Part shown: one piece after another, positions 10,457 to 62,048 of the stretch
Layout: each line of letters begins with the position of its first letter
How positions within the stretch are numbered: position 1 is the stretch's first letter
NCBI RefSeq assembly: GCF_905475395.1
Contig: NC_058339.1
Location: 54,693,172 to 54,757,171, forward strand
Source of the DNA: Chrysoperla carnea
Taxonomy: Eukaryota; Arthropoda; Insecta; Neuroptera; Chrysopidae
Reading direction: 5' to 3'
Length of the DNA: 64,000 bases
Notes under the pieces: generated by a model
Seen by the model: the letters and a program-made list of their open reading frames with translations, nothing else
Told to the model about the DNA's origin: nothing
Database searches by the model: none
Made by a program: the position numbers and the translations under genes

Positions 10457-10825
10457 ACCCATAGAACCTAGAGTAACTTTTACTTGATTCAAAAAAATGT
10501 CATTTAACTGTTTCTATGGAGGGGGGGAGTATGCAAAAAGTAGACCAATGGGGTTTCTGGCGAGATCCAGAATATTAATCTATAGGCTTTTCAGATCAAG
10601 AATCAATTGACAAAATGTGGTACTCATATTTTGCACATTCAACCCCATCCAGAGCCTGCACTTATAAGTAATAATACTGAAACTTTATTAATGACCGCAT
10701 TGGTTATACAAAAAATAGTTATATAATTTGTTTAAATAAATTATTATTCTAGTTTAATTTCATAAGTATAATTACTACCGGTCTAGTACTTTTGAATCTT
10801 CTTTTTCCAGATAAGTAACTATTAG

Positions 10826-11105
10826 CTAACTATACCCTTTTTTTGCATAAACAATAAGTAATTCATACGGAGTATTAACAGTATTATTTTCTAATATTAA
10901 TCCACATTTCTGACTTTCGTTCATGTAATCATCAATATATTCTTTTCGACTTGATTCCGGTATTCGATTAATGAACGGGTTTACACTTTCCATAGTTTCT
11001 GGAAACAAATTATCATTAATTGCAATAATCTCAACTTGGCACGCACTAATTTTTATTGAAAAGAGGTTGGAAATCAGAAAGTTTGATATTGAAAAAACTA
11101 ATGAA

Positions 11106-11137
<32 letters not shown>

Positions 11138-12276: not shown

Positions 12277-12429
12277 TGCACAGAAATTAAAAATCCAAAA
12301 ATTATAATAATTTTATTATGGCGAAAAATTAAATTTTTGCATCGTTTAAAGAATGCGTTTATATATACACTCTTTAATTTGGTGCATATTTAATTTCAAA
12401 TTCATTAATAATATGCTAATTAATACTAA

Positions 12430-14200: not shown

Positions 14201-14208
14201 CATAAAAA

Positions 14209-15997
14209 TTACATTCTTTTTTGAGCATATACTACAAGCAGCTCATATGGTGTGTTAATTTGTATTTGATTATTATTTTCTGATATTAAATCTCGTTTTA
14301 TAATTTCTTCCAAATATTCATCAATGTATTCATCTCGCTTAGATTCTGGTATACGTTCAATAAAAGGGTTTACTGCTTTAACTGATTCTGGAAAAATAAT
14401 AAAAATATTTTAATTTTGCAAAATTTAATACAAAATTTCGGTGAAATATTTTTTTAACAAATAAAATATTACTTAAATTCGTAGAGAGTTTAAACGCTTT
14501 TAAAGTACGTATTTTTGCAAACAAATTATTATATTAATAGAAATAGATTTATTAAAAGTTTGTACGATTTTTTTTCCATAAGCAACTTGCAATACATATA
14601 AAATAGAATCTTATATAGTATTTTTCTAGCCTATTTTTCGTGCCCATACGAAAAATAGACTCACGGTCTATAAATATACCACTGTGGAAAAAGCAGGCTA
14701 GATAAATAATATTAAGATTTAATTTTGTTCATAATGTAATTTATATATCATATATGTAATAAAATTGCTTATAAATAAAAAGAAAATAAATTACTCACTT
14801 AAGATATTATTTCTCAGCCGGTTTATAAAGTGTTTAAAATGTCGTTCGTATAACAATAAAACGATTTAAAACATTTTTGAAAATATGCTTCGAAAAAATT
14901 TTCCCCATAACATTTTATGCTACTCTTTTATTATAAATATGCAAGACTCTTTTTTTATCGATTAAAATTGTATACCCCGTTCGAATTGACCAATCGAAAT
15001 TTGACTTTTGACGCCTGTATTTAGAAAATTTGTTTTCCCCATTCTTACAAAATTTCAACCTTTAACGTGAAAACTCACGAAGAAAAGCTCTCATAATCAA
15101 CCGAAAACTTAATTTAGTAATTTCATAAGTTTTCTGTTTTGTGACAGCTAAATCGTTACCAATACAGTAGGTAACGGTAAATACAGTTCCAAAAAAAATT
15201 AGAAATCATTTACGGTAAAATTTTTATATTTTGAAAATAATAAGTACATACTTCTCCAAGTTATTAAATCCTCGTAAACAAATGTTCGCGTTTCTCGTTT
15301 ACATAATTCCACTTCAAATCCAATATTTTTTAATATTTGTTTCAATTCTTTCTCAGGATACAAACTCTTTTGAAATGGTGAAATATATTTATCATAATCC
15401 TGCATATATGATTGCCATTTTCCAAGTTTAGAAATTGATTCATATATGGAAAATAATGGATTACTAGCGAGATATGTAACTAACACATCACCTTTTGGTT
15501 TCAATAAATCATAAATATTTTGATAAGCTTGCCTACAAAAAGAAAAAATAATTATTATTAGTATGCAACTGTATATACTTAACTGTAAATTTAATCTATG
15601 AATAAACTTCATATAAAATGAAAATTTACCTTTGATCTTGAATCCAGTGTAAACAATAAAATGAAAATACATGATCAAATTTTCCAGAAAACTGTTTTGG
15701 TAACATTTTTGTGCTAATATCTAATTGTCGAAATTGTAATTTTGTATTTTGATGAGCAATTGTTGCATGTTTAATCATTTCGCATGAAATATCTGTACCA
15801 ATAATCATTCCGTGTGTATTTGGCATATTATTTAATAATAATTCCGAAGTAATTTCACCATCCCCACAGCCAATATCTAAAGATATATCACCACCGTTTG
15901 ATAACCATTTAATATTTTCAAAATAATTATCGATAACATATTTGGCATCAGTTTTTTGTAACGAATTCGACGAAGAGTATAAATTTGCATTATTCAT
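14209..15997 (-). CDS. Juvenile hormone acid methyltransferase-like gene D, divergent copy (3 exons)
   Basis: Predicted exons on the minus strand: 15997-15630, 15532-15252 and 14387-14209 (368, 281 and 179 nt), 275 residues, introns GT-AG at the same phases as A-C. Motif I LDIGCGDGE (40-48), the acid in GTDIS (D69), Q14 (SLQKTDAK) and FSFYCLHWIQDQR match the canonical JHAMT pattern closely. The FYCLHW form is closer to orthologues I remember than FSSYCLHW of A-C. Exon 2 holds NIYDLLKPKGDVL. The C-terminus, NTPYELLVVYAQKRM, has a few extra residues (NNQIQI) before it. Intron 2 is the longest of the set (864 bp). By eye this is the most divergent copy and the best candidate for the ancestral or canonical enzyme. 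Its promoter side (16000 upward) is unlike those of B and C. Confidence 0.9.
14631..14658. repeat. Small hairpin in intron 2 of gene D
   Basis: CTATTTTTCGT, loop GCCCAT, then ACGAAAAATAG: an 11-bp perfect stem. It is flanked by TCTAGCC (14625) and, inverted, GGCTAGA (about 14697), suggesting a roughly 85-bp inverted-repeat remnant. Confidence 0.5.
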
Positions 15998-15999
15998 TG

Positions 16000-17920
16000 T
16001 TGAAATATTTTATTGAAAAAAAAAAAAAAAACAACAATACAAAAAATAAAATTTTTCTCAAAGTTACACACAAAAATTTAAAATAAATAAAAGTTAATTT
16101 TTTTGGTTTGATTTTCGGTAATAAGCCTTTCGTACTCTTCGATAGTTTATGAACGAATAGGATCATCGCAAGTATACCATGGATATTTATATATAAGTTT
16201 AATTTTGGTGGGTACTTGGGGTCACATGAAGAAGTTGTGTGTCCAATAAACAATCTATATACGATTATTTAATGGATTCACTAAAACGTAACAAAATAAA
16301 TTTGTTTTTTTTTTTAACAAAACGATAAATTCGTTTCAGATAATTGACTATGGAGTTTGATTTCTAACTTTTCCGGTTATACGTTTTGTATTAGAGTATA
16401 TGGCGGAAATATTGGCTTTCCAAAGCTCATTTTGCAGTAATTTTAACTATATAGAAAACCAGCTATTAATTAATAATTTTATTAATCACAATCTTTAAAG
16501 TAAAAATATGTTATTAGTTTATAACAAGAAATTAGTTAATTTTGTATTTAAAATTCTATGAATTTTCTTAAATTTCAAGCTGAAATCAAGCTATGTTTTG
16601 AGTCAAAAATAAAAGTATAAGTATTTTAGAATTCATTTTGAATTAAAATTTAAAAAAATTTTACAAATTATGAACTTTTTGAAAAATTTAATAAAGTATA
16701 TATTAAAACAAAGTCATTGTAGTATAAGCTCTCAAAGCAGAAGTGAGCCAAAAAGAAACCTTATTTTCTTGAGTCAGCCTTCGTTTGGCATTCGTAGATT
16801 AATTCTATGCAGAATATCAACTTCCCTTTTTTCGATTGGCAGACACTCGAAAAATGCAGAAAATTTTCAATGTTCTGTTCAAAATCACTTGCAGCTTGTT
16901 TCTCTATATTATATTTAGCCAACGCAGATATATTCTTCAGCTCCCTCCGAGACATTATCTTGAAACTTGTGAGTCCAATAACATTTATAATTTGGCTTTT
17001 TATGCCCAAGCGCTAGGCATGTCAAGTCGAATTTCTAAAAGATTAGTGCAGGATATTTTAATGAATGCCCAATTCTTGCTAAGGTAGAAGATATTTATTG
17101 AAGAAAATTAAATAAATTAATAGTAGTATTAATATTAGAATTTTTGTATATTGAAACTAAGGAAGAATGTAAAAGTGAAAACAATCCTTAAAAATTGAAA
17201 ATATCTTACGGTTTGTCAAATTTTAATAATTTTTCTGGACTGAAAACGGTGTAGAATTGTTAGTTCAAAAAGTATCTTATATACGCTAAAAGTCATCGAA
17301 GTAATTTGCTGCCCTACAAGATGCTAAAGCTCTCAAAAAGCTGTAATGCCAAAATAAAAAATAAACAGGCGCCTATGAATTTAAAAAAATATGTTTTTTT
17401 TAAGTTCACCCATCCTATGACGTTGTTTCCCATTCATTCTATTCTGGACAAAAATAAATACTTATTTATATTTGTTATTGTTAATTAACAATTCTCTGAT
17501 TTTAGAAGATAAAAAATTCAAAAGAATAAATGAACAAAAATAAATTTTTCCAATGACCTTATAGGTTGTATGATATTCATGTAACTGATTTCAATCTAAT
17601 TTTGGTTTTATGAGAAAAATAAATTAGATATTCTAAGTAAAGGTAATTTAATTTAATTACTTTTATTGTACGGTAGTTTCCATAAAGTTCTTCTTCATAA
17701 AACTTGGTTGTTTCCATATTCTCTGAGGGATTACAAAAAATTATAAGAGATTTTCAGTACATCGCGAAAATAGAAACAGTTCCTAAACTAAACCTAAAGC
17801 TGAATCAAATAGTAAATGTACCCAGATATAAAATACTATAACAAAATTCCAAAATGAAAATATAAAAAAATCTATCATCTATCATCAAAAAAATCTATGA
17901 TCATTAAAAAAATAAAATAA
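16000..17920. other. Intergenic DNA, no supported gene
   Basis: Several overlapping frames on both strands occur at 16670-17087, but none shows a recognised domain or splice continuation. It could hold a decayed gene or repeat; I cannot support either. Confidence 0.4.
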
Positions 17921-35385: not shown

Positions 35386-38300
35386 TTAATTGGATCGATG
35401 ACTATTTACATCTCCTTGAGATGATATTTCCGTACTTCCAGGACACCAAACTTTGAGAGCATCTCTGAAAAAAAAAATATATAACCAATCCAGGTTTTAA
35501 ACCAATCAGCTACAAACATGAATTAATTTTTAAAAGACCTTGCAAGACAATATCAATTTTAAGGCTTCTGTGAGGCGTTTCTCTTCGAGTAGAACAACTT
35601 TTAAGTGTGTCATTTGTTCCAAAAATTCTTCGTTTAAGAAATTTAGATAAAAAGTAGATAATAAACAATTCAAATGAGTTGCACACAATAATTTTTGCTA
35701 ATTTGTGATTAGTTCTTTTGAACTATAGTTCTCTCTTTTGAACTATATCCTGCACAAATTGTCCGTTGAGGTGGCAAATTTTAGGATTCATAAATTGATA
35801 TCTAAACCAAAAAAACGATCCTTTGACACAATACTTTAAGCAACAATTACAGGTTGTTTCAATAATTTTCATCGACACTTATTCGATTTGACTTTTTTTA
35901 ATTCTAATAATCCGATCGTCCATATTAAAGAATACAAGACTGAAAACGAACTTGATTAATGACGTACGGATTTTTGTATTATCTCAAGTTTCTATGCTAG
36001 AGAGATCGACAGACTGATCTACATTAAACAAAAAATTATTGCATACAATAATAATTACCTCATACACTTTTCAGGCAATCTTATAGCTTGTAACCAAAGC
36101 CATATTGCCAGAACAATGGACCATGTACGAAGTGGGCCAATTAAAAATGCCATTGTGCCATAGGCTAACCAAAAAAAGTATGCAAATAACATTTGTAGGG
36201 ATAAAACAATAAGAAATGGTATATGTTGAACAAATTTACGAATTTTTGTATTACTTATTTTGCCCGCATAAATGTGTAATCTAAAAAAAAAATATTGTAT
36301 TAGTATAAGAGAGTTGACAAAGTCACGAAAGTTGATTTCAGACTTGCTGGATTTTGGATAGTACTTTTCATATTGAAATTTGATACGAATGAAGTACGTC
36401 TGGAATTTGAGAACGAAAATGGCTGATTTAAAAAAAATTTTAACACAATTTTAAAAAAAAAGTCATCATTCGTGTCCTTAATTATTGCACTCATATTTGA
36501 AAAGTGTTTCAATTAGATTATATAGTGCAAATACATCACTAAAAAACACAAAACTTGTATTCAATTGAAAAGTGTCCAAAAAATTTATTTAAATCATACA
36601 TTTTCAAATTTCGCGCGTGAATGACGGAAACTCTGGACGCAATAGTCGCCATATTGTTTTATCGTCATGACGTCAGTTGGCTGTGTAAGCAAATGCGCCG
36701 ATAATTTGTACGATAATTTAAATTTTTTAGTTTATACAGCCATGTGACGAAATAACATGGCAAATACTATTACTATTTCATCGTTTTTAAAAAACTGAAC
36801 TTTGAACTGAATTTTAAATTTTATTTTGTTATTTTAGGAACCAAAACTAACATTATCCGACTGCTTTTTGTCTAAGTTATCTCTATAATAAATTTTTAGA
36901 TTTTTTCTCATATACAGTAAAATACACTATTAGACGCTAGATATTCATGACGTTGCTAACTAAAACGGTGTGGTGATAACACCACACCAAAATTCTAATG
37001 ATTAAAAAAAATAAACTTTTTCAAATTGTTTTAGAATGGATGTAATTTTAAAATAATTCAGTTTTACAATAAAAAAAATTTGGAAAACGGTTGACCCTGC
37101 AGGTCATCCCTGTAACTTCCCGCTAAGTATTGACTCAACTTTTCATTGTTTAGCGAAAATGTCGGTCCAAATAGGCCTCAAAATCTAAGTTTGGTCAAGC
37201 CCTTTCGAATGGCACCAACCGCGATCAAATCGGACAAGCCGTTCAAAAGTTATGAGAGGTTTACATACATCCACACACACTCATACATACATACAGCTAT
37301 ACAGACACCCTCGCGGAAGTAGTCAGGGAAGCTTCCTGACACCTTAAAACGTCGAGATCTGATGAAAACTCGATTTTGGCAAAACGGGGTGAAAACAATA
37401 ACTTCCCTATTTTCTTAGCGGGAAGTTAAAAAGAAATAAAATTATAATTTGCCAGGCAGTAAATCTATCGGTTTACAAACGTATATCCCCCATTAGTTAA
37501 CGTATTCGCAAGACGTTCTTCATCCATATCTAATTTCAAAAAAAAATATCCAAAATTCAGCCATCTTAAAATTAACTCACGAAACCGTTGCCAGCACTCT
37601 TATCATTTTATTGGCATGTTAATTAGATAGTGATAATATAATTGAATATTGCTTAATCGTATAAAAAATGAATCTATACTAATATTACAAAATGAAAAAT
37701 CCAGTTCAAATATAGCTTAGACAAATATTTTCTAAGAAATTATCTGAAATTTATCGAGAAATCCTTCTTTGTATAGAGTTTTGGACGATATCTCAGAAAT
37801 TATGCATCCAATCATTAAATAGTAAAAATCAGGACTCGGTAAAATGGAAAAATCACAAAAGTTCGTTTAAAATTTAAATAAAATCATTGCCTAAGATCCA
37901 GAAAAATATAAAAATCCATTTTATTGTTAGATAGTTTCAAAGTTTTTTCATACTTCTTAGATTTTCCTGACTTCTTAAATTCTTTTCCTGATAGTTCTTG
38001 GTTAGTGGCAACTCTACATTATACAATATTCAATCATTTTCTCTCCCACGTTAAAAAATAAGCTACATACTTAATATCACAGATATTTGCCAGCAAAAAA
38101 ATCATTGGTAAATGAAATGTAAATAATTGTAGAAAACCATAAGCGTATGTAAATGATCCTGGTAAGAATGCACCATTTATAAAAATTCCCCATGCGAATA
38201 TTACACCTAAATTATCATCAATAATATATCCTACGGACCATGGTCCAACACCAATATACAATGTATATAACATTATCGGATAAAATAATCGATCAACTGT

Positions 38301-41300
38301 TGATAATATCCATAATTTTCTGATTATTGATACGCCAAATCGAGATCTAGGTATAATGATTTTACCCGCTAAAAGTTATAATATAAATGTTTGTTAATTA
38401 ATCTAAATTATGAGTATATATATATTAATTGTAAAAATTTAATAATTACCATGAAATTGATAATTAAAATATTTTAAAACACATAATGGAACGACACAAA
38501 TAACAAGCATTACTCCAAACATACCCTGAAACTGGAATCAAATATAAAATGTAGTCAAAGCATTTGTTTTTAAGTTAAGAAACGGGCAAGTACGCATTTG
38601 CAAGGTCTATAGATACAGTATCGGATAGAACAAGAACATTTACAGAGGACTAGAAACTTTGTAAGTTTATATACAGGGGTGAATTTTATTTGTCTTCATA
38701 TGCGGGGTGTTCCAAAATCATATTTGCAATCATGGATATATCTATAGAAAAGAACTCCGCTTATTGAACAATGTATTCATAGACCTTGAGATTTACGTGG
38801 ATGGGGAAATAAAATCCGTATAATCTCTGAATAACTAATATGATAATTTTTCCCCTCTCACTAAGTTTTAGAATATTTTACAAAATTTAATACGGGATAA
38901 TTAAGTAAACCGCAGAAATGGAAAAATTCTAATTCTCTTAAAAATAGTTACTTACAATTTGGCTAACATTTGCCATTAATACAAATCGTGATAAAATCCC
39001 AAAACTCAGTCTGGTCCCATCCAATGAAAAAGGTTGAACGATTAAATTTTCACGGCCAAATTCATCTTTGGCAAATACCTGCAAAAAATATTTAAATCTT
39101 TATTACCCAAGTAGAGAAGTCAATAGCGATTTACGAACCGATATTTTGTTTAAACCAATTTCATAATTATGCGGATTCCATGGTGCGACGTATAAAGGCC
39201 CTTTTGAATTAGTACACTCTGTCCAATCTTCACTATTGATTTTAAATTTAACTTGAGTAATTTTTGCAGATGAAAATACAAGTATTCTATAACAGTTCAA
39301 GTTGCCAAGAGTTTTTATATGAAGCGTATTTAGATCGAAGGAAATTGTTATATATTATACCTGACATGAGTCGATTCGAGAATAACATTCGAGTCCTCAC
39401 GCAATGGTATTGCATATAATGCATGCTTGGGATTTGTTATTAAAATCACTGGCCACTCTCGATGTTTAACATCAATAAAAGATAATAAACCATGATCCAT
39501 TGCTACCAAACGAAATCTGAAAAGAAAAATCTTAATATTTAAAACATAAAGTCATGTTTACAGGTGAGTAAAAACTACAGAAGATATCGAGATATGATAT
39601 TTGAAGTTGTTTAGCAAAGCAGGTACATAAAAGTTAGTTTAAAATTAAAAAAAATAAAATATTTACACCCTGTTATCTTTCCAATCACCCAATTCCAATT
39701 CAAGAAATCCATCACGCTGTAACGTATACATATTTGGTACAATCCCACCTAATTGATGATAATGTCCGCATAAATACACAAATCCTTTTGTATATCGACC
39801 AAGAAGCGACCGGATTCCACCTTTTGTACGTGCCATAATACATGATGTTGGATAGTGTCCAAACCTACATACAAATACACATCTAACCATTACCAAAATG
39901 GGAAATTAATCTCAATTATAAAAAATAAAGAGTGTATACAATGCTACAAATGAGATTCTAGGTAGAATAGAAAAGTCGCTTGGGGCATTGTATACTATCT
40001 CTTAAATAAAATGAACAAACCAAATTGTATAATTGACACCTTCATATTGTGCTTGATCTATTAAATTAATAACATTATTTAATTCACGCTCTTTTAAAAT
40101 ACCCACAAAGTTAAATGGCCTTCGGGGTCCAGGTTCGATACAAGCATCAATACCAATAAACGAATATTTATCTTTTGCATAATTTAAATTATATTTATAA
40201 GAGCGTGGATATTTTTGGCCTTGAATTGAATAATTTACATAATAGTTTTGTTTCGATTCCAATCCAAAAACATTGAAATTATCTGAAATAAAAAATTTGT
40301 TAATGTAGAAGAGATTTTTTGCATCAGAATTTGTTTAAAAAATACAAAAATCGAATTTATTCAACGATTAGATTAACAATTTTCAAGATAATCGCTCGGA
40401 ATCGCGTGACAAATCCGAAACTAATTAACCAATTGTCAAATGATTCCAATTTTTTTTTTTTTTAGGTCAAAATTACAGTATGAACTTATTTTTAATCGAA
40501 TTTGGACGTAATGAATTTTTCTCGATTTTCTTTTTCTTTAAAATAATTGTAAAATTCGGCCATTAACAACAGCTATAGGGCCATTAACAATGGTACATTT
40601 AATTCACAATGCAAAAAACAAACAAAAGATTTGCCTCAGAATTTGATAAAATTCAGTTTATATAATAGACATCCTGGTGGAAAAAATATTTGGCGAAGGA
40701 ATAAGCCTTAGAGACTATAAAAGTCTTAAGAATTCTAATATTTTTGAATTTCTCAACGTTTTGGGACTGTCTAGTTCAGATTTATCCGTTCTTATTAAGT
40801 CTGAATTAATAATAAGAGTATAAGAATAAAGTATTTTTTCTTCAAATATTTTTTCCACCAGGGTATATAAGGCCTATAGTTTATATTGTAAATATGTCTC
40901 AAAAAATACAAAAATCGGGTTCATTTGTCGATTAAATTAGTAATTTCCTAGATATAATCTGTATTTTTAGATGTTACAATATTTTCACAACTTCCCTCGT
41001 CAGATAAGTTCCCTATTATACAAAATTGGTTTTTGCAATTCGCCCCATAAGAAGTGATTAAATACCGCTTAAAATCAACAAATTTTCAGACTTCAATATA
41101 TCAAAAACGGAAACTCAGTTTATCTACACTGATAATGATAATTTTTAAAGTAGCATTAATAAATTTAAGTAGTTCATAATTATTGCAAATAATTTAAAGT
41201 AAATTAAAATATTAGTTATCAAGTTTTTGACAATAAATCGATAGATAGTTAATCCTAATACTTCAAAAAATAATAAATACCATGATTTCCTCGTATATCT

Positions 41301-41799: not shown

Positions 41800-44080
41800 T
41801 GCCATTATTGTACTTAAAATTTAGTTTTATTTTAATATTTATTATGTATCATCATACTTTAATAATTTAGTACTTAATTAAAAAATACTTAACAAAAATT
41901 TTTTTATCATACGTTCCATTTCGTTGACAGATGTCAAAATTTTTCAGAGATTATCAACTGTAATAATCAAAATATCAATTTTATGGTAAGTTCATTTTTA
42001 TGGATTACAGGTTTCTGTTTCTAAATTTTCTTTGGTGCTCCGAGATGGCGTTATATGTGTTAATATATTTAATACAGCATGTAACAAAGTTTTCAAGCGC
42101 ATTTATTTAATATAAAATATACATATCATGTCGATGGCAGATCTATAATTCCAGCCCAAAAAAACTCAAACTGAACTAACTCTGCCCGCATTAACTCAAT
42201 CCAATGCAATGGGTTGAATTGCATTTAAAAAATGATTCTTTTTTATTTCGGACAGATGTCAATCAAGTAAAAATATATCACATATCTTCTATCTTTGTTA
42301 GAAAGCGCTGTTTGATAAAGGAAAAATACATTAGATTTTCTTAAGTTGACTAGTTTTTTGACAATTGTCCGAAACAAAAGCATATTGGTGAAAAGCCTAT
42401 TGGTAAGTTATTGTGGTAGAAATTACAATGTTGTCATATTTTAAAAACTGTATATACATATTATCGTTAAAACCTCTTTTGTGTTGTCATAAAAAAAAAA
42501 AAAAACTAAAATTCGATAGATTTATAAAATTATAAGAATTAACACCATCTAAACGTGAAACAGAGGACTAGGAAATATTCTCTTTCTGATGGTAATGCAG
42601 AAATCTAGGATCGTATTATTTCAGTAATATGTTGTTTGTGTTGCATAAACAAATTACATTATGGACTAAAATACCAAGTTTCGGACGAAAATACCAAAGA
42701 ATTTGCTTGTAATAATAATAATAATCATCATAACCATGACAATAATAATAATCATAACAAAATTTAAATTAGAAATTTCCAATTGGTTCCAATTCATGAT
42801 ACGGATCGAATTGGAAATTGCATATTGGGTTCTGTTGGATTTAATTGGAATTTCGTTGGAATGAATTGGAAATTTTGAATTGGAATTTGTTGATTTTTTT
42901 ATCAGGGATGCCGTATTATATATGTACTCTCGTATATGTACTCTCGTCGTCTTTTACTGTAAAATTGAACCAAAAAAAAAAACATAAAATTCAAGTCCCT
43001 TTTAGTTTTAGATTGTTTTGAAACTCACTTTACGCGCATTACGGGCATTACAAGAACTTGAAATAATGTAAAATTTTGTTCATTTTTTTAATTATTTGGT
43101 CATTTGTAGCCTTTGCTTATTTATTTTCTCTGTTTGTGAGTATTCTGGAAGCCAATTAATACATTATTAATACACAACGATTAGAGCTTACTTTTATAAT
43201 AATAAGCAAAATTTTAAGGAAAAAATTTTATTTATTTTATCATCAGACCAATTTTTCGCAAAGTAGAATATTTACGGTGAAAATTTACGTTCAAAGTTCC
43301 AAATTATAAAATGTGAATTTTTCTCGAAATTTGGATTTTTTATTCAAGTACTTATATTAAATTTTTACAATTTCTATAAAATATTAAAATTAGTGAGAAA
43401 GTGAGCTACAGACGATAAATTATAATAAATTTTATTCTTTGTAGCTTTGCTAAATTATAAAAACTTTCAGAAAATCTTAAAACTATAAAAATAATTAACG
43501 AGGATCTAACTTGTTAATTCATTACCGTTGCGTCAAATTGAAAAATGGGTTAAAAACCTCGATAGTATGAGTTAAAAATCTTCCAAGACTAACAATAATA
43601 TTTAGAGTTAGGTTCAGAGTAGGTTTTGTTTTGCACACTTTCAAATGTTACTCTGTTCGGTTTGAACTGTTTACAGATTTAAGAAACAAAGTTTATTTGA
43701 AGTTTAAAAAAAATGTAAATTGAAAATGTGCAATTATAAAATATGAGACTTTTTGAAATTACAAAATAATACCTAAATAAAAACTATTTTCTGTCTAATT
43801 TTGAAATTATAAATTTATGCATGCAATATATTCTAAATGTAATCAGGGACGCCTTGATAAATTATTTCAACTATTATTTTTCTGAATGTTGTTTATGAGT
43901 TTTAATTAATTTTCACAAAATTAAAATCAGTCATATTTTCAATGTAAATAAGATGAGGAAGGCTGTGAACATATTATTACTGTACAGTTTGTTTTCGGAT
44001 ATGGATTGAAAAACAAGCATAAGTCATATTAAAGAAGTTCAATTAATTTGTTTTTGAGAAATTTCACCAAAATTCTGGAA
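41800..44080. other. Intergenic region between TMEM62 and the first unknown ORF
   Basis: No gene is supported. It contains an (AAT)n-like microsatellite at 42712-42760 and a run of degenerate AATTGGAAATT motifs at 42765-42895. As the space between divergently transcribed genes it must include both promoters, but I recognise no specific element. Confidence 0.45.
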
Positions 44081-44083
44081 AAA

Positions 44084-46549
44084 ATGGCCAAATTTTTTAC
44101 AAGTGCAAAAATTTTTGTTCGGAATATTGTTCATTTTTTGTTAGACGAGTTATGCACTTCACGTATGTTTCGAATTCCATTTAGACCAAAAGAAATGGAA
44201 ATAATAACTATACAAGAAGAGAAGAAATTATGGACTTTTCCGAAAACATCTGTCAGATTAATGTCATCTTGTCAACATTTTTGTTTGCAAAGTAGACAAT
44301 ATTTGTTTACAAAACCATTAGGATTGACAGCTGTACGTTCATGTAGAAATTTAATATTTCGAAGATATTGTTATCAAAATGTAAATTTGCCAGTGCCAAA
44401 TGTAAAAGAGAAAGAAAAAGTTAAAGGTAACAATGAAAAAGTTACAAAACATAATGAACATTCGAAAGGGAACGATTTTCACGAAATCAAAGAAAATAAA
44501 TCAAATATACGAAATATAATGAATACAACTTCATTAAATGTTGAAGATTTAAGCCATGATGATATTTTGGAGAACAATTTATTTAATTCTACTCAAGATG
44601 TAGAAATCGTAGGATCTGATGATGTTGCAAATTTAAATAGCGATCATGTTAATCGTTTGCCATTAAATTTACAGAACTTAATTAACGAAGTTGAAATTGA
44701 AACTCAAGTCTTTTCCGAGTTACTAAATGACACTCATGCCAGAAAAAATGAAAAAATACCAAAAACAGTGGAAGTCGCACCCTTAAAACCATTTAAGGCA
44801 AAAAATCAAATACCTGATTTAAGTAATATTTCCAAAAATAACTCACATTTAATTGATGTTTCCAACAACACAAAGTCATCGTTGAATGCGAAAAATAAAG
44901 TAACAAAATTAGATGATTTAAAAAAGCTTGTCCAGAGTCAGACAGATCAACCACCAGATGTACCGAAAAATGTCACTTACAACAAAACCTTATTGGATCC
45001 ACCAAATAAAGGTCCATTACCAATACTCTCAATCAAAGAAATACAAAACTTGGCCAAGAAAATGTGTGCTAAGCATGTTATAAAAACTGATCCTAAAATA
45101 TTTCAAAAACCAGTTAGCATTGCAAAGCCCAAAATACCGGAATCAATTGAGACTAAAAGTAAAATATCAATAAATAAACCACATACAGTCGATGCCTTTT
45201 CTCAAATACCTTCGGTTCAACTACCAAAAGTTGATTTAGAACATAATCCAGTTTTGGTTGAACGTAAAAATCGAATGGAAATGATAAAAAGAACATTACA
45301 GAAAGTCAAAACAATTGAAATGGATTCGATAGACGAAATAAAAACAATGTCAAATGCAATGTTAAAAGATCCAAAAGCTCCAACATTATTAACACTTGCA
45401 AGTCGAAATCGATATAATATCGGAGAAGGTGTAGCGCCGCCATTTAAAATACCATTTCGTATAACAAAAGATGCGAACCGAAATATGGGTGCGCGAAATA
45501 TTATAAAAGAACAACCGAAGAAAAATGTTGATGAAAGCGATGTTAAAATTATCCAACAAGGAGTATTAAGTTCGGAAGATATCCGTAAAAAATTTAATCC
45601 ATTATCATCACATTTACAACGACCAGGAACGGTTCCACTATACTCATCAAACTTAAAAAGACAAGTTTCATCTCAAATCAGTAAAATGTCCTCTGAGGAA
45701 GTACACCATAAATCACGTTTACCATTACCGAAAACAATTATACAGCAAACAATCAATTCAAAAAAACCTTCACCATCTATCAAATCAGAATTATTGTCCC
45801 AAACTCCATCCAAAGTAAGTATAAAGGAAAAGAGCTCCATACCAGTACGATCTAGCACCACAAAAAAATCAAAAGTAGAATTAAAACCGAAAGCTGCATA
45901 CGATAACATGACACGTAATATGAATACACCAGCACGAAACAGTTGGTCATATTTATTATCACATGCAAATAAAAAACAAATTTTACAATTAAAACAACCC
46001 AAACGTTTTTGTTCATCAACATCCGGTTACGATTCTGATTTTAGTAACGATACAGAATCAGGTGGAGCATTTGATCAAGATGACATGAATCAATGTAAAG
46101 AAGATGATTATAACATGATTGAAGTTAAAGTAAAAAAAAATTTACCATACTTGCAATCACATCGACCCGATTCATCAATTAATTTAACCGGTTTAGTTGA
46201 TCGTTCTATAGCCCAAGAATTACGTATGCAAGAAATCGAGGATCGAAAAGAACTAAATCACGATGATGTACATGCAACAATGAATCATCATAATGGAAAA
46301 CACGTAAACGAAGTGGTTATTACGACCGGTACATCAAATGCACAAAACGCTGATGATCCAGAATTTGATAGTATCCATGGGATTTATTGTAACCAAGTAT
46401 TATGTCCAACTTCATCCGATATGTTGACAAGATACATGAATTTTAGTTCACAAACTGAATCGGAGGATTTAAAAACGAAAATTAAATGTATGACGTCTGA
46501 AAACAAAGAATTAGTACACAACTCTAATAATAACGACAATAAAAGTTAA
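44084..46549 (+). CDS. Unknown long single-exon protein, first of a paralogous pair
   Basis: Open from 44048, but that codon is TTG. The first ATG is 44084 (aaaATGG, 821 codons); a second candidate, ATG 44261 (762 codons), begins MSSCQHFCLQSRQYLF and lines up with the start of the neighbour at 48189. From 44261 the first 38 residues lack acidic residues and are rich in R, K, S and C (ending FRRYC), which looks like a mitochondrial presequence. The rest is low-complexity, lysine-, serine- and asparagine-rich and mostly disordered-looking. Two islands are shared with the next gene: LPLNLQNLINEVEIETQVFS (coded from 44657) and LSIKEIQNLAKKM (from about 45022). An acidic segment, DSDFSNDTESGG, is near 46035. 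I recognise no domain and propose no function. A spliced 5' exon cannot be excluded. Confidence 0.8.
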   Translation: MAKFFTSAKIFVRNIVHFLLDELCTSRMFRIPFRPKEMEIITIQEEKKLWTFPKTSVRLMSSCQHFCLQSRQYLFTKPLGLTAVRSCRNLIFRRYCYQNVNLPVPNVKEKEKVKGNNEKVTKHNEHSKGNDFHEIKENKSNIRNIMNTTSLNVEDLSHDDILENNLFNSTQDVEIVGSDDVANLNSDHVNRLPLNLQNLINEVEIETQVFSELLNDTHARKNEKIPKTVEVAPLKPFKAKNQIPDLSNISKNNSHLIDVSNNTKSSLNAKNKVTKLDDLKKLVQSQTDQPPDVPKNVTYNKTLLDPPNKGPLPILSIKEIQNLAKKMCAKHVIKTDPKIFQKPVSIAKPKIPESIETKSKISINKPHTVDAFSQIPSVQLPKVDLEHNPVLVERKNRMEMIKRTLQKVKTIEMDSIDEIKTMSNAMLKDPKAPTLLTLASRNRYNIGEGVAPPFKIPFRITKDANRNMGARNIIKEQPKKNVDESDVKIIQQGVLSSEDIRKKFNPLSSHLQRPGTVPLYSSNLKRQVSSQISKMSSEEVHHKSRLPLPKTIIQQTINSKKPSPSIKSELLSQTPSKVSIKEKSSIPVRSSTTKKSKVELKPKAAYDNMTRNMNTPARNSWSYLLSHANKKQILQLKQPKRFCSSTSGYDSDFSNDTESGGAFDQDDMNQCKEDDYNMIEVKVKKNLPYLQSHRPDSSINLTGLVDRSIAQELRMQEIEDRKELNHDDVHATMNHHNGKHVNEVVITTGTSNAQNADDPEFDSIHGIYCNQVLCPTSSDMLTRYMNFSSQTESEDLKTKIKCMTSENKELVHNSNNNDNKS

Positions 46550-47950: not shown

Positions 47951-48188
47951 AATGAAAATTTTTTGCTTAAATAAAAAAAAAGTATGCTTAGATCAATAAA
48001 TAATATTGTTTTTTTGTTACGAAAAGAAAATGTTTTATAAATTTTGTAAAATTGAATACTTTTGAATTTTTGACTCCATCCAAGGAGTATGTAACGAATT
48101 AAAATTACAAAAAATAAAGAGTACACAAAAAGCTGATTATCTAATCAAAACAAAAATTTTGTAAATAAAAAATTTCGGAATAAAAGTT

Positions 48189-50093
48189 ATGCATTGTTCA
48201 CGTCATTGTTTAGAAGTCAGCACTTTAAGTGCAAAAAAATTGTTATACTCACATGCAAAATATTTCAAACGATTTTATGGTGATGGTATTAAAGTAACGA
48301 AAGCGAAAAATAAAAATTTAATAAATGATAAACCAACGTTACGTAATAAATTACCATTAAGTATTCAATCGTTAATACAAGAGGCTGAAATCGAAACGAC
48401 CATTGTATCGAATTTAGTGAATTATAATTGTAAGCCACAATTAAATCGTGGTGAGAATAAATTCGATGTTGTTGTCGAACAAATTCGAAATAATGATAAG
48501 AGTTCATTAATTTCGACGGATGTTTACGATGAAGATATTACTGAAAATGAAGATCAAACGACAGTCGTTTCAACACAAAGTAAACAGAAGAAAGGAAGGG
48601 AAGACACAACAATTGAACAGGGGGCCATTGAACAACTATGCCAGGAAGATGTCAACAATGTCCTCGAAAAGTACGACAATTCTAAAGTGATGTGCGAACG
48701 TAGTGATACTCCAAGAGATGGATCTACTACCAACGCTGATAGCATCCTCAAATCAACGAATGTTTCTTTTAACATGCAAAATAATTTAGAAACTAGTCAA
48801 GATTTAGAATCGAGTAATTTTGGCAAAGAAATATATAATATTGAATCTAAAACACAACATCAAGAAGATACTACCGAAAATGACGAAAAATTAATTGAGG
48901 ATATATCACCTCTGAAATTTGAACATTTGTTAAAAAGAGAAAATTTATTAAATAAAAAATTATTAGAAAATATATCACCATTGGAGGATTTATCAGTAAA
49001 TGTGCCTGTAAAAAAGGCAGAAGAATTAAAAACAAATTTTGCTAATCAAAAGAAAGAATTAGAACAAATAGAAAAACATCCACATGAATCATCTTCAACC
49101 ACATCGGAAACAAGTAAGCAAATCTTATATAATCAATCAGTTCTAAGACATAAACCAGAAGATGTTATTAAACCTTTACCGCATCGACAAAATGTAATGA
49201 AATTTTTTGATGACAAGTACAATCGAACTATGGAACCATCACCACCAGTGAAAACAGAATCCTCAATTGGAACTGCTGAAATGTTTTTTACAGAAGTAGT
49301 TAATACTAAAAAATTACCACTTGTTGACGAAGAAGACGATTTGAAAACTGAAGATCCAAAAATTACTGAGAATGAAACAAAAATTGAACCATTTCAAAAA
49401 CTTACCTCAAACCATTTACATGGCCAGTATAAACGGCAGGAACAAAAAAATCATACTAATGAAATCTTACGTCATTTTAAGAATATGATGAATCCAAAGA
49501 AAGTAAGTAAAATAAATATGAAGGAAATTGTTTCGCCAAAACCGGATCATTTAGGTCAAATGGTTGTTGATTGTTTAAATGGTAGTTTTACTGGAAAAAG
49601 TACTATGAAAAAATTATCATTAAAGCAGGTACAAATGTTAGCTGATGAAATGAATCAAATTGCACAACAAAAACGTTTTGAACAACGAAAATTTGTACCA
49701 TTTAAGGTAAATCTACAAGATTTGAATGTAAATCAACCATCATCACCACGTAATGAAATCAATACTTCTATTCCTGAAATGAAAACGTTTGAAATAAATG
49801 CTAACCCTACGTTAAATTCATTTAAAATTGAAGAGAAAACTGTAACATCACCAAATGTTGATGATAATAATACAAACATAAATAATGATACTTGGAGAAA
49901 ATGGTTCCAAAAATCGAAAAACACTAAAGAAAATAATAATAGTGATAGCAAAATTATTGGAAAGATGGTCTCAGGCTTTACATTTCTTACATTTTTATCA
50001 CTATTTTATTTATCAAAGTATAATGTGTTTAATATTAAAAGACGCAGTAATACTAAAAATGTTAATGAAAGATTATTTAATTTGATTAGATAA
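48189..50093 (+). CDS. Unknown single-exon protein with C-terminal membrane segment, second of a paralogous pair
   Basis: 634 codons from ATG 48189 to TAA. The N-terminus (about 1-33, ending KYFKRFYGDG) is basic with one acidic residue, compatible with a mitochondrial presequence and resembling residues after Met 44261 of the upstream ORF (FRRYCYQ). Island 1, LPLSIQSLIQEAEIETTIVS, starts at residue 55; island 2, LSLKQVQMLADEMNQIAQQK, near 476. Both are counterparts of islands in the neighbour. The middle is acidic, E-, N-, T- and K-rich, and probably disordered. A single hydrophobic helix at about 593-609 (VSGFTFLTFLSLFYL) is followed by a basic tail (KRRSNTK), as in tail-anchored proteins. 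The upstream paralogue has no such helix. I do not recognise the family. AATAAA lies at 50249. Both genes run in the same direction, 1.6 kb apart. Confidence 0.8.
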   Translation: MHCSRHCLEVSTLSAKKLLYSHAKYFKRFYGDGIKVTKAKNKNLINDKPTLRNKLPLSIQSLIQEAEIETTIVSNLVNYNCKPQLNRGENKFDVVVEQIRNNDKSSLISTDVYDEDITENEDQTTVVSTQSKQKKGREDTTIEQGAIEQLCQEDVNNVLEKYDNSKVMCERSDTPRDGSTTNADSILKSTNVSFNMQNNLETSQDLESSNFGKEIYNIESKTQHQEDTTENDEKLIEDISPLKFEHLLKRENLLNKKLLENISPLEDLSVNVPVKKAEELKTNFANQKKELEQIEKHPHESSSTTSETSKQILYNQSVLRHKPEDVIKPLPHRQNVMKFFDDKYNRTMEPSPPVKTESSIGTAEMFFTEVVNTKKLPLVDEEDDLKTEDPKITENETKIEPFQKLTSNHLHGQYKRQEQKNHTNEILRHFKNMMNPKKVSKINMKEIVSPKPDHLGQMVVDCLNGSFTGKSTMKKLSLKQVQMLADEMNQIAQQKRFEQRKFVPFKVNLQDLNVNQPSSPRNEINTSIPEMKTFEINANPTLNSFKIEEKTVTSPNVDDNNTNINNDTWRKWFQKSKNTKENNNSDSKIIGKMVSGFTFLTFLSLFYLSKYNVFNIKRRSNTKNVNERLFNLIR

Positions 50094-57357: not shown

Positions 57358-57366
57358 GAACAATTG
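57358..57366 (+). repeat. Left 9-bp target-site duplication of the foldback element
   Basis: GAACAATTG, identical to 62040-62048 and immediately outside the first base of the inverted repeat. Confidence 0.85.
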
Positions 57367-57654
57367 AGGTTTGTGAAGATGGCACCCCCATGACCGAATT
57401 TTACGTTCTTTGTGAGCTTAATCGTTTGACCATCGTAGGACCACTTTTGACCACCCTCAATTTTCGTTTGACCACCCTCCGTTCGGAAAATATTCACGAT
57501 TCAAAATTTTATTTCTCGTAGCCTCCACCATAACCAGCATAGGGAAAATAACATGGTAGCACCCCCATGAACGAAATTTAATTTAATTGTGAGCTCAATC
57601 GATTCTAAATCGTAGGACCACTTTTGACCACTCACAATTTTCGTTTGACCACCC

Positions 57655-59230
57655 TTCGTTCGAAAAATATTTAGAAAAAACAATTTTTTTTTTAACGAAA
57701 AACAAAAAAGGCTGGATTCTAATGAATTACTACAAATTCTGGGGTGTTTTTGTGCTCAATCGTTGGAGAATCGTAGGACCACCTGGGAATATTAACAAAA
57801 AACGTTAGACCACCCTCCGTTCGAAAAATATTTAGAAAAAACAAATTTTTTTTTAACGAAAAAACGTTCCCTCCACCATCCAAAGATTGTAATAACGACA
57901 AAAACAAAAAAATCGATTTTCTACTAAAGGAGTGAAAAATTTATAGATTTTTTCATCAAAATCCATTCAAAATCGTAGGACCACTTTTGACCACCCACAA
58001 TTTTCGTTTGACCACCCTCAGTTCGAAAAATATTTACAAAAAACGAATTTTTTTTTAACGAAAAAAAATGAAAAATGAATTTTTATATAAGCAGCAGGAA
58101 TTCTGGGGTGTTTTTGATGTCAATTGTTAGCGAATCGTAGGACCACCCCAAAATATTCACAAAAATCGTTTGACCACCCTTCGTTCGAAAAATATTTAGA
58201 AAAAACAATTTTTTTTTTAACGAAAAACAAAAAAGGCTGGATTCTAATGAATTACTACAAATTCTGGGGTGTTTTTGTGCTCAATCGTTGGAGAATCGTA
58301 GGACCACCTGGGAATATTAACAAAAAACGTTAGACCACCCTCCGTTCGAAAAATATTTAGAAAAAACAAATTTTTTTTTAACGAAAAAACGTTCCCTCCA
58401 CCATCCAAAGATTGTAATAACGACAAAAACAAAAAAATCGATTTTCTACTAAAGGAGTGAAAAATTTATAGATTTTTTCATCCAAATCCATTCAAAATCG
58501 TAGGACCACTTTTGACCACCCACAATTTTCGTTTGACCACCCTCAGTTCGAAAAATATTTACAAAAAAACGAATTTTTTTTTAACGAAAAAAAATGAAAA
58601 ATGAATTTTTATATAAGCAGCAGGAATTCTGGGGTGTTTTTGATGTCAATTGTTAGCGAATCGTAGGACCACCCCAAAATATTCACAGAAATCGTTTGAC
58701 CACCCTTCGTTCGAAAAATATTTAGAAAAAACAATTTTTTTTTTAACGAAAAACAAAAAAGGCTGGATTCTAATGAATTACTACAAATTCTGGGGTGTTT
58801 TTGTGCTCAATCGTTGGAGAATCGTAGGACCACCTGGGAATATTAACAAAAAACGTTAGACCACCCTCCGTTCGAAAAATATTTAGAAAAAACAAATTTT
58901 TTTTTAACGAAAAAACGTTCCCTCCACCATCCAAAGATTGTAATAACGACAAAAACAAAAAAATCGATTTTCTACTAAAGGAGTGAAAAATTTATAGATT
59001 TTTTCATCCAAATCCATTCAAAATCGTAGGACCACTTTTGACCACCCACAATTTTCGTTTGACCACCCTCAGTTCGAAAAATATTTACAAAAAACGAATT
59101 TTTTTTTAACGAAAAAAAATGAAAAATGAATTTTTATATAAGCAGCAGGAATTCTGGGGTGTTTTTGATGTCAATTGTTAGCGAATCGTAGGACCACCCC
59201 AAAATATTCACAAAAATCGTTTGACCACCC
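57655..59230 (+). repeat. Left-arm tandem array (3 units of 525, 526, 525 bp)
   Basis: Units begin at 57655, 58180 and 58706, each at TTCGTTCGAAAAATATTTAG; a fourth start at 59231 is cut off near 59274. Within each unit AATCGTAGGACCAC occurs three times (for example 57768, 57970, 58132), spaced about 202, 162 and 162 bp, each copy followed by a TTGACCACCC-type motif. Units 2 and 3 look nearly identical. Confidence 0.9.
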
Positions 59231-59274
59231 TTCGTTCGAAAAATATTTAGAAAAAATAATTTTTTTTTTAACGA

Positions 59275-60325
59275 ATATCAGTGTTGCACTATTTCTAATA
59301 AATTAGAGAAGTTTAAAAAATCGAACACATTTATTAAGTTCCAGTATTAAAAAATTTAAAAACTTTTAAAGTATTTGCTAGAAAACCGTACACCACTATG
59401 TTAAGTGTACGCACAATAAATTAAAATTTTATTAAGTTTTTTAACATGTGTGCAATAATAGGCCAAAAAATGAAAATTTGTTCAACAAAGAAATTTTTAT
59501 TTAAACATAGACATCAAAACAAAATTTGAAATCAGAAAATGACAAATCTAAAACACATTCTCAAAATCCGCTTTTAAAATAAGATTTAGACATTTATTTA
59601 AAATTTTAAATAAGAACGCTAACTAACAGAATAACATTTCAGAAAAAAAAAAACGTTGTCATGGGCAACAAAGGATCTAATTTGATTCTATTAGTCTTAA
59701 AAACTCATAATCTTAGATTCATTTGGAATAGGCCTATTGGGGATAACACATTAAAAAAAAGTCTACCTCGAAGGTGGTGTGGAAATGACTAACAAACTGG
59801 AACCTTTTAAAATTTTTAAAATGTTTTTAGAGAAATCATTCATAAATTCTTGCGTTTATAAAGCATTTTTGATAATTTAATTGCAAAAGCTTATTTTTTT
59901 CCTGTTAACTTAATGGATTTTATAAAAAGTAATTCTTATAGTCTTTCGTTTATGAAATACATTGGTTGATTTAATTGTAAAAAGTAATAAAAAAAACCAC
60001 CATAAAACCAAATTTTTAATACTAATTATCGCTGTTGCTTAACTTTTATCGTAATATAGATAATAAGTGTAAAAAAGTATAACTAGTTTTTCCAAACATT
60101 ATTTTTTCACTAATTAATGAATCTAAACTGTATTCATTAACATCCCTGCATATGATATAAATAAAATATAAGAATATAAAGTATCAATTTTCACTACCAG
60201 AATTCTTCAAACTAAGAGTGGTCCAATAAAGTTTGTGGTTTGTGGTAACGAATTTTCAGGTTTTTCTACACTGGTCCAACGATGGTCAAACGATTAGACG
60301 ATTATGAATTTAAAATTTATATATC
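59275..60325. other. Central loop of the foldback element
   Basis: AT-rich, without a long ORF. At the right end (60210-60320) a few degenerate arm motifs occur (GTGGTCCAATAAAG, GGTCCAACGATGGTCAAACG), so the right arm probably once extended further. Confidence 0.6.
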
Positions 60326-61751
60326 TTTCGAACTGAGGGTGGTCAAACAAAAATTGTGAGTGGTCAAAAGTGGTCCTACGATTTTGAATGGATTTTGATG
60401 AAAAAATCTATAAATTTTTCACTCCTTTAGTAGAAAATCGATTTTTTTGTTTTTGTCGTTATTACAATCTTTGGATGGTGGAGGGAACGTTTTTTCGTTA
60501 AAAAAAAATTTGTTTTTTCTAAATATTTTTCGAACGGAGGGTGGTCTAACGTTTTTTGTTAATATTCCCAGGTGGTCCTACGATTCTCCAACGATTGAGC
60601 ACAAAAACACCCCAGAATTTGTAGTAATTCATTAGAATCCAGCCTTTTTTGTTTTTCGTTAAAAAAAAAAATTGTTTTTTTCTAAATATTTTTCGAACGA
60701 AGGGTGGTCAAACGATTTCTGTGAATATTTTGGGGTGGTCCTACGATTCGCTAACAATTGACATCAAAAACACCCCAGAATTCCTGCTGCTTATATAAAA
60801 ATTCATTTTTCATTTTTTTTCGTTAAAAAAAAATTCGTTTTTTGTAAATATTTTTCGAACTGAGGGTGGCCAAACGAAAATTGTGGGTGGTCAAAAGTGG
60901 TCCTACGATTTTGAATGGATTTGGATGAAAAAATCTATAAATTTTTCACTCCTTTAGTAGAAAATCGATTTTTTTGTTTTTGTCGTTATTACAATCTTTG
61001 GATGGTGGAGGGAACGTTTTTTCGTTAAAAAAAAATTTGTTTTTTCTAAATATTTTTCGAACGGAGGGTGGTCTAACGTTTTTTGTTAATATTCCCAGGT
61101 GGTCCTACGATTCTCCAACGATTGAGCACAAAAACACCCCAGAATTTGTAGTAATTCATTAGAATCCAGCCTTTTTTGTTTTTCGTTAAAAAAAAAATTG
61201 TTTTTTCTAAATATTTTTCGAACGAAGGGTGGTCAAACGATTTCTGTGAATATTTTGGGGTGGTCCTACGATTCGCTAACAATTGACATCAAAAACACCC
61301 CAGAATTCCTGCTGCTTATATAAAAATTCATTTTTCATTTTTTTTCGTTAAAAAAAAATTCGTTTTTTGTAAATATTTTTCGAACTGAGGGTGGTCAAAC
61401 GAAAATTGTGGGTGGTCAAAAGTGGTCCTACGATTTTGAATGGATTTGGATGAAAAAATCTATAAATTTTTCACTCCTTTAGTAGAAAATCGATTTTTTT
61501 GTTTTTGTCGTTATTACAATCTTTGGATGGTCGAGGGAACGTTTTTTCGTTAAAAAAAAATTTGTTTTTTCTAAATATTTTTCGAACGGAGGGTGGTCTA
61601 ACGTTTTTTGTTAATATTCCCAGGTGGTCCTACGATTCTCCAACGATTGAGCACAAAAACACCCCAGAATTTGTAGTAATTCATTAGAATCCAGCCTTTT
61701 TTGTTTTTCGTTAAAAAAAAAATTGTTTTTTCTAAATATTTTTCGAACGAA
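60325..61751 (-). repeat. Right-arm tandem array (2 full units plus a partial unit)
   Basis: Reverse-orientation units 61227-61751 and 60702-61226 are each 525 bp; a partial unit of about 377 bp lies at 60325-60701. Sequence and spacing mirror the left arm almost base for base. Confidence 0.9.
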
Positions 61752-62039
61752 GGGTGGTCAAACGAAAATTGTGAGTGGTCAAAAGTGGTCCTACGATTTA
61801 GAATCGATTGAGCTCACAATTAAATTAAATTTCGTTCATGGGGGTGCTACCATGTTATTTTCCCTATGCTGGTTATGGTGGAGGCTACGAGAAATAAAAT
61901 TTTGAATCGTGAATATTTTCCGAACGGAGGGTGGTCAAACGAAAATTGAGGGTGGTCAAAAGTGGTCCTACGATGGTCAAACGATTAAGCTCACAAAGAA
62001 CGTAAAATTCGGTCATGGGGGTGCCATCTTCACAAACCT

Positions 62040-62048
62040 GAACAATTG
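62040..62048 (+). repeat. Right 9-bp target-site duplication of the foldback element
   Basis: GAACAATTG, identical to 57358-57366 and directly abutting the end of the inverted repeat. Confidence 0.85.

Follow-up and report, generated by a model that had tools for sequence, protein, structure and literature searches.

A foldback element of Chrysoperla carnea and a candidate transposase–protease mobiliser encoded in its family

The 64,000-nucleotide stretch of Chrysoperla carnea DNA analysed here (the window) contains a 4,673-bp element (57367–62039) with inverted arms of 1.7–1.9 kb and a non-coding core, which is best read from its sequence as a non-autonomous foldback DNA transposon without a gene of its own. 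The element was probably moved in trans by a candidate Mutator-like transposase fused to a USP-like protease, for which an uninterrupted 1066-aa ORF is present in a longer copy of the same family. The features of the window element are as follows.

57358..57366, + strand: left 9-bp target-site duplication GAACAATTG
57367..59280, + strand: left inverted arm, 1,914 bp, terminal block and two-level tandem array
57367..57873, + strand: 507 bp that match the right end exactly, beginning AGGTTTGTGAAGATGGCACCCCC
59281..60271 (about), no strand: non-coding core, common to all 26 copies read, two of which have only part of it
60321..62039 (about), − strand: right inverted arm, 1,719 bp
61533..62039, − strand: 507 bp that match the left end exactly
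62040..62048, + strand: right 9-bp target-site duplication GAACAATTG

Structure of the window element and its family

The two copies of GAACAATTG adjoin the element's ends with no spare base, as a preliminary description of this DNA had claimed; given the window's composition, the probability that nine bases agree perfectly at fixed ends is 1.7e-5. At least two such 9-mers anywhere in the window were found in 32 of 100 shuffles, so the count alone is not unusual, and the pair is telling because both copies abut exact ends, not because the 9-mer occurs twice. Two mismatch-free occurrences of the 23-bp terminus are present in the window, one at 57367 on the forward strand and one ending at 62039 on the reverse strand, and none in 100 shuffles; the termini are thus exactly complementary, as described earlier. 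The arms are 99.4% identical over 1,720 columns, and their outermost 507 bp, which are identical, include the 288-bp outer blocks already recognised. The arm lengths of 1.7–1.9 kb and the internal tandem units given in the preliminary description also held, the left arm comprising 10–11 monomers with a spacing of 161–202 bp that are grouped into a higher-order unit of 525 bp made of three monomers (161 + 202 + 162). Scanning the window with Rfam and for tRNAs gave no hit.

A genome search for the terminus, as had been proposed, returned 110 occurrences of its 30-bp form and none for the control. Among the 100 of these ends that were listed, 45 facing pairs were located on five chromosomes, and the other copies ended at the same base as the window element (terminus search, up to 4 mismatches in 30). 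Exact 9-bp duplications, all different, flanked 24 of the 26 copies read fully and were absent from two; thus, neither the differing ends nor a general lack of direct repeats elsewhere, both raised beforehand as possible objections, was found. For L012, a copy without a duplication, a search with the left flank and terminus matched only its own end. The 26 do not include copy L022, of which only one end was read. The core was present in all 26 copies, although markedly shorter in L028 and L035, and 21 of them share one phase of the 525-bp unit at the left arm–core junction. The exact 21-base pattern of the terminus was absent from viral contigs.

Arm lengths ranged from 869 to 8,747 bp across the 26 copies. 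Element lengths were periodic at 525 bp (44 pairs, p about 3e-6, uncorrected for the periods scanned), with about half of 525 bp scoring slightly higher in the same scan. The family therefore has the features of the foldback class, namely long inverted arms with tandem repeats around a middle domain and an arm length that varies by repeat units; its duplication size of 9 bp falls in both the 8–10-bp range of foldback elements and the 8–11-bp range of MULEs.

The preliminary description took the perfect duplication and near-identical arms to suggest recent insertion or arm homogenisation. Recent insertion finds partial support at most: since near-identical arms occur family-wide, arm identity gives no date for the window copy. 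Homogenisation fits the data, because the 525 bp beside the outer block differed on average by 0.75% within a copy and by 1.3% between copies. The outer 294 bp differed by 0.3% between copies and the core by 1.6%, a contrast that is biased because copies were chosen by best-matching ends, and a special constraint on the outer 294 bp was dropped as an interpretation. The empty sites with a single GAACAATTG that had been envisaged did not appear: of the 41 matches listed for the joined flanks (260 + 260 bp; 40 of 226 candidates scored, one assembly), not one spanned the junction. The occupied site itself gave the only matches of full identity, one for each half, and the remainder were short repeats in the right flank.

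Coding copies and the predicted protein

A 16.2-kb coding copy at C4:45322806-45338981 has the same ends, arms and core as the window family. Its arms measure 4.3 and 3.3 kb, it is flanked by exact 9-bp duplicates of AATAAAAAA, and it contains the uninterrupted 1066-aa ORF. The core lies on both sides of its coding part in inverted orientation, and the window copy therefore looks like a deletion derivative. The 16.2-kb copy was the only one with an uninterrupted ORF among those listed for the window family, its two close relatives being interrupted; the search for ORF relatives scored 43 of 144 candidates, so all ORF counts are lower bounds.

Intact relatives of the 1066-aa protein (28–33% identity) are encoded in two more families of foldback-like elements. 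One copy of each was read, and both had inverted arms of tandem units and exact 9-bp duplications (AGTATATAG and TGAGTATTA). In the second family, all 17 uninterrupted ORFs of 1082/1083 aa that were listed lay inside a convergent pair of its ends. Its termini agree with those of the window family at 17 of 24 bases, a match equalled in none of 100,000 shuffles, and its element lengths were periodic at 297 bp (24 pairs, p about 5e-6, uncorrected for the periods scanned).

The 1066-aa ORF had no Pfam match up to E 10, and the NCBIfam search gave weak, unrelated rows only. Against the PDB it yielded a single row, a pentatricopeptide protein (E 0.011), which was taken as chance. No confirmed relative of the ORFs was found in viral contigs and none in phage records.

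The C-terminal part matched ubiquitin-specific proteases when a profile of four related proteins was compared with the PDB: USP12 was hit at E 8.2e-7, and most rows up to E 10 (36 of 41) were ubiquitin-specific proteases. All four proteins have invariant Cys and His boxes (TC825xFD, H1024 and W1036) and an invariant CxxC pair (C916xxC919), and the acidic stretch after the W varies (YDD, HDG, YDD and IND). Pfam UCH was reached by the protein of L042 only (29.5 bits, cut-off 23.9), the other three, including the window family's own, being below. We predict this part to be a ubiquitin-specific-protease-like domain. In the open-access literature, as far as it was covered, no USP domain was found in a foldback or Mutator-like transposase; reports of one may exist elsewhere.

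Affinity of the transposase and mode of mobilisation

The preliminary description had called the element Mutator-related. The 9-bp duplications agree with that assignment, and so does a D..D..DxxH..E series, D378, D447, D492xxH495 and E664 being invariant in the four proteins with 68–74 residues between the first and second D and 216–245 between the second D and E (68 and 216 in the window family's protein). The MULE profile PF10551, by contrast, stayed below its cut-off of 27.6 bits, the best score being 15.4 bits in one of the four proteins, with none in the window family's own. A profile of the DDE region matched nothing in the PDB up to E 10, and FLYWCH, a mark of the Phantom subclass, gave no Pfam row up to E 10 in the four proteins. 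Phantom members without FLYWCH appear in a table of PMC6446971. Membership in the MULE superfamily is thus consistent with the data but not proven.

A C/DxxH motif between the second D and E marks MULEs and some other DDE superfamilies, and the protein could accordingly belong to one of the latter (P-like as in Galileo, hAT-like or Merlin-like), its foldback arms having evolved independently. Galileo, in the P superfamily, does have foldback-like arms (PMC3688188). We consider this origin unlikely, given that no transposase profile other than MULE, itself weakly matched, was listed for the four proteins and that their spacings are near those of the 'non_reference' arthropod MULE clade (D1–D2 60–76, D2–E 214; PMC13359780), whose reported values resemble those of the window family's protein.

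Alternatively, an ordinary MULE transposase from another part of the genome might move the foldback copies, the 1066-aa ORF then being cargo. PF10551 exceeds its cut-off at 14 places in the genome, all of them more than 5 kb from any listed ORF place, so another transposase could act, and the lack of a Pfam match in the 1066-aa ORF also suits such a role. Cargo is not expected, however, to be present in three families, and two other families that likewise combine inverted tandem arms with 9-bp duplications contain related ORFs, the uninterrupted ones of the second family lying between its ends in every one of the 17 cases listed, with acidic residues in DDE-like order common to the four proteins; we therefore hold this explanation to be quite improbable. 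An assembly artefact (long inverted repeats being hard to assemble) or a local inverted duplication at this one locus is a very unlikely source of the mirrored arms in view of the precise shared ends, the 45 convergent pairs and the different, exact duplications in 24 of 26 copies.

For the preferred reading, mobilisation in trans by the transposase–protease, we propose the following course. A transposase making a 9-bp staggered cut, a length suggested by the 9-bp duplications, would have inserted the element and doubled GAACAATTG. The 1066-aa protein, as a putative DDE-type (Mutator-like) transposase with a C-terminal USP-like domain, would bind the arm repeat units and move coding and deleted copies alike. 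The deleted copies most likely go back to a single founder, which spread after losing its coding part and one of its two inverted cores, since they have one core in common and mostly the same phase at the arm–core junction. Arm length, observed to be periodic, may shift by whole repeat units through unequal exchange or through slippage in hairpins during repair. More speculatively, the role of the protease may be to prevent the transposase or its partners being removed in a ubiquitin- or SUMO-dependent way.

A broader proposal is put forward tentatively: several foldback families here, at least one of them apparently active until very recently, may share a distinct transposase lineage (a Mutator-like DDE core plus a USP-class deubiquitinase), their arms may consist of two levels of satellite-like repeats that serve as its binding sites, and a fusion enzyme of this type could be the long-missing mobiliser of FB-kind foldback elements.

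Comparison with known systems

FB4/FB-NOF of Drosophila melanogaster resembles the window family by description, with foldback structure, 9–10-bp duplications and non-autonomous copies, and the FB4 mobiliser was described in 2021 as an unknown transposase (PMC8277862). The putative transposase–protease of the 1066-aa ORF is a candidate mobiliser of foldback elements. The question of the foldback mobiliser becomes directly testable in this genome, where an uninterrupted coding copy stands beside some fifty relatives recognised by their ends and a related family that has at least 17 uninterrupted ORFs of near-identical score.

Tm1 of root-knot nematodes and the Phantom/Muta MULEs likewise have composite inverted repeats with tandem subunits, mostly 8–10-bp duplications and a MULE-type transposase (PMC3169594, PMC5225508, PMC6446971). 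Their transposases are about 500 aa long (Tm1 496, Aedes 416–554) with FLYWCH, SWIM or no zinc finger, whereas those here are 1066–1200 aa with a USP-like C-terminal part. Transposases reach 1136 aa in an arthropod MULE survey (PMC13359780), in whose main text the words 'foldback', 'ubiquitin', 'peptidase' and 'NOF' do not occur. Galileo combines foldback-like arms and tandem repeats carrying extra transposase binding sites with a P-type transposase that has a THAP domain (PMC3688188), whereas no THAP was listed by Pfam for the four proteins here.

A deubiquitinase built into a transposon protein, as predicted here, is described for Helitrons with VTD or OTU domains (PMC9741609); these encode a rolling-circle RepHel and other protease classes, in contrast to the DDE-like protein and USP-class domain of the present families. 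With a USP-like domain in an apparent cut-and-paste transposase, the list of protease classes described for transposons would grow by one; such a domain also suggests that transposition is held in check by ubiquitin signalling.

Tetris, a foldback element of Drosophila virilis, consists of an outer domain, a tandem array of units of about 220 bp and an inner domain, with 8–10-bp duplications, and by description shares with the window family long arms with a tandem array and a non-coding middle (PMC4079207). The same account gives no coding copy of Tetris, whereas the window family has a coding relative and two repeat levels in its arms. These arms show how a transposon end can become a satellite-like array; in Tetris, the array size differs between two allelic copies (PMC4079207).

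The window element and its family

The preliminary description had placed an intact-looking, Mutator-related foldback transposon at window 57358–62048. The observation holds, and so, largely, does its interpretation: the coordinates matched exactly, a terminus search confirmed that the termini are exact complements, and GAACAATTG adjoins both the left and the right terminus as the claimed 9-bp duplication (given the composition of the window, nine matching bases at two set positions have a probability of 1.7e-5). The first 507 bp are identical in both arms, and arm-to-arm identity is 99.4% over 1,720 columns. The left arm is a two-level array, organised in the same way as higher-order satellite repeats, in which 10–11 monomers (60–82% alike, 161–202 bp spacing) build 525-bp units of 161 + 202 + 162 bp that are 93–99% alike; the terminal stretch (57382–57514) is itself a diverged monomer. 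There is nothing unusual about the window element by itself: it is a non-autonomous foldback copy.

The 30-bp terminus of its family (family 1) was found with up to three mismatches 54 times forward and 56 times reverse in the 559-Mb genome, where the window lies on C3, versus 0 and 0 for the reversed control. Of the 100 ends listed, 10 were unpaired; the other 90 made up 45 convergent pairs with spacings of 115 bp to 16.5 kb. The two ends facing each other within 115 bp at G000 C3:29545272-29545386 are possibly a small remnant. Twenty-six copies, including the window copy, were read completely; since they were picked by having at least one end among the best 40 of 158 candidate matches, the sample leans to well-kept ends. 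A 27th copy (L022), read at one end only, is excluded. Exact 9-bp duplications flanked 24 of the 26 copies, all 24 different in sequence, and no similar repeat was found at the two ends of the other two (L012 and L013). Exchange between copies would explain these two; a genome search with the left flank of L012, however, turned up no partner. When both strands of these 24 sites are counted, A stands at position 2 (and T at 8) in 65%, and position 5 is A or T in 92%, no more than a hint of a target preference.

All 26 copies have the same AT-rich core, about 985 bp long (shortened to 454 bp in L028, 828 bp in L035 and 931–956 bp in three others), with 96–99% identity in most pairwise rows and no stop-free stretch longer than 70 aa found. 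Because this core is shared and the left arm–core junction lies at the same phase of the 525-bp unit in 21/26 copies, a single founder is the simplest reading. Arm lengths ranged from 869 to 8,747 bp and could be widely asymmetric within a copy (e.g., 870 vs 4,911 bp). Element lengths showed a 525-bp period (44 pairs, Rayleigh p about 3e-6, uncorrected for the periods scanned), with half of it, 262–263 bp, scoring slightly higher. In the 525 bp that follow the outer block, the mean difference was 0.75% between arms of the same copy and 1.3% between shuffled partners (0/10,000 shuffles as low), and the own partner was the closest arm in 15/26 copies, ties included; the arms of one copy therefore share history or are homogenised, if not strictly. 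A 13-kb copy (L020 and L021, G000 C1:111550424-111563494) has an 8.7-kb left arm of about 15–16 higher-order units, a satellite-like expansion within a transposon.

Coding relatives

A coding copy was found between family-1 ends:

C4:45322806-45338981, 16,176-bp pair of family-1 ends with a coding part

Its termini are those of family 1 with one base different in the right terminus, and an exact AATAAAAAA duplication flanks it. Its arms, 4.3 and 3.3 kb long, enclose a 5.7-kb part with an ORF open over 1066 aa and a core on each side in inverted orientation, the left core being split by an 837-bp stretch without a match. What forms the core in the window element is therefore the inner section of a longer inverted repeat; the window element itself has the appearance of a copy from which the coding part and one inner repeat were lost. 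The ORF has two close relatives, both interrupted, at C6:5394925 (95% identity over residues 334–1066, one stop) and, inside another pair 16.5 kb apart, at C1:134549046 (76–95% identity in pieces, several stops).

A genome search for ORF relatives, with 43 of 144 candidates scored, gave at least 17 uninterrupted ORFs of 1082–1083 aa with 32% identity to the 1066-aa ORF and nearly equal scores (family 2); other relatives among the matches listed had 1107–1109 and 1200 aa (32–35% identity in parts). One copy each of families 2 and 3 was read. The family-2 copy (1082-aa ORF) is 9,715 bp long, is flanked by an exact AGTATATAG duplication and has inverted arms built from 297-bp tandem units. A search for its terminus gave 53 occurrences in the genome (control 0), forming 24 convergent pairs; within such pairs lie 17/17 uninterrupted ORFs and two shortened or interrupted ones, and the one of 20 tested ORF places outside belongs to another group. 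Family-2 lengths show a 297-bp period (p about 5e-6, uncorrected for the periods scanned). The family-3 copy (1107-aa ORF) spans 5,421 bp; its inverted ends, each about 450 bp, consist of tandem units of roughly 140 bp, and it is flanked by an exact TGAGTATTA duplication. Between families 1 and 2 the termini share 17/24 bases (0 of 100,000 shuffles as good), between 1 and 3 they share 12 (p 0.008), and between 2 and 3 they share 10 (p 0.027).

The encoded proteins

The 1066-aa protein was aligned with its 1082-, 1107- and 1200-aa relatives (33, 28 and 31% identity). D378, D447, D492, H495 and E664 are invariant, with 68–74 residues between the first two D and 216–245 from the second D to E. 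Several DDE transposase superfamilies, including Mutator, show this D, D, DxxH, E arrangement. Pfam MULE reached 14.9–15.4 bits in one of the four proteins (cut-off 27.6), and no Pfam transposase profile was found in the other three. In the genome, 14 places pass the MULE (PF10551) cut-off, and no such place comes within 5 kb of any of the 41 merged ORF-relative places; the same search gave matches in 3/14 control genomes. The four proteins thus match the profile less closely than the ordinary MULEs of this genome do. Twelve of the 14 MULE places fall inside a 1.5-Mb stretch close to the C1 end (G000 C1:138.2-139.8 Mb).

The assignment of the C-terminal part is firmer than that to DDE/MULE. 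A C-terminal profile of the four proteins matched USP12 (E 8.2e-7), then USP8, USP4, USP14 and USP36, with ubiquitin-specific proteases making up 36/41 rows up to E 10; the whole-protein profile gave USP36 and USP4 as best (E about 0.004). Pfam UCH passes in one protein, L042 (29.5 bits, cut-off 23.9), and is below cut-off in the other three. All four proteins retain the Cys box (TCxFD), the His-box His and a CxxC pair. The C-terminal part is predicted to be a deubiquitinase or a SUMO protease.

Proposed mobility and known systems

The precise ends, the 9-bp duplications, the coding copy with the same ends and the periodic element lengths are observed. They are probably best explained by a non-autonomous foldback copy moved in trans by a Mutator-like transposase fused to a USP-like protease; confidence in this reading is slightly reduced, as the protein of the window family does not by itself reach the MULE or the UCH cut-off. 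That the elements belong to another DDE superfamily, with which the shared residue order would also be compatible, is unlikely; the D2–E spacing resembles the 214 given for an unnamed arthropod MULE clade in section 3.2 of PMC13359780, and the present lineage may therefore already have been sampled. The words foldback, ubiquitin and peptidase are absent from the main text of that source.

Under the Mutator-like reading, the 1066-aa protein or a close relative would cut at the element ends, with the arm monomers as putative binding sites, as reported for the arm repeats of Galileo (in the part consulted of PMC3688188). Deleted copies would be moved in trans, and arm arrays may change through unequal exchange or repair slippage in hairpins. 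More speculatively, the USP-like part might shield the transposase or a partner from removal.

In structure and in the size of its duplication the element matches foldback elements, and its layout is close to that of Tetris, as far as the portion consulted of PMC4079207 describes it. The Tm1 and Muta1 transposases, about 500 aa in the sections consulted (PMC3169594, PMC5225508), differ from the present protein in size and in the C-terminal part. Deubiquitinase domains are described in other transposons (VTD and OTU in Helitrons; PMC9741609, in part), and a USP domain in a foldback or Mutator-like transposase was not found in the open-access papers searched. What stands out here, rather than the window element, is that a coding relative exists, that its protein has a protease-like part fused to it, and that related families are also coding.

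Other features of the window are as follows:

993-1469, + strand, MEA1-like coding stretch
2850-16009, - strand, four similar methyltransferase genes in a cluster (Pfam Methyltransf_12 in two stretches tested)
38034-38375, - strand, TMEM62_C-like coding stretch
44033-46549 and 48165-50093, + strand, long ORFs of 838 and 642 aa (no Pfam match at E 0.001)

By eye, the methyltransferase genes resemble juvenile-hormone acid methyltransferases (JHAMT-like), which would hint at an insect host, with Pfam showing only generic methyltransferase domains.
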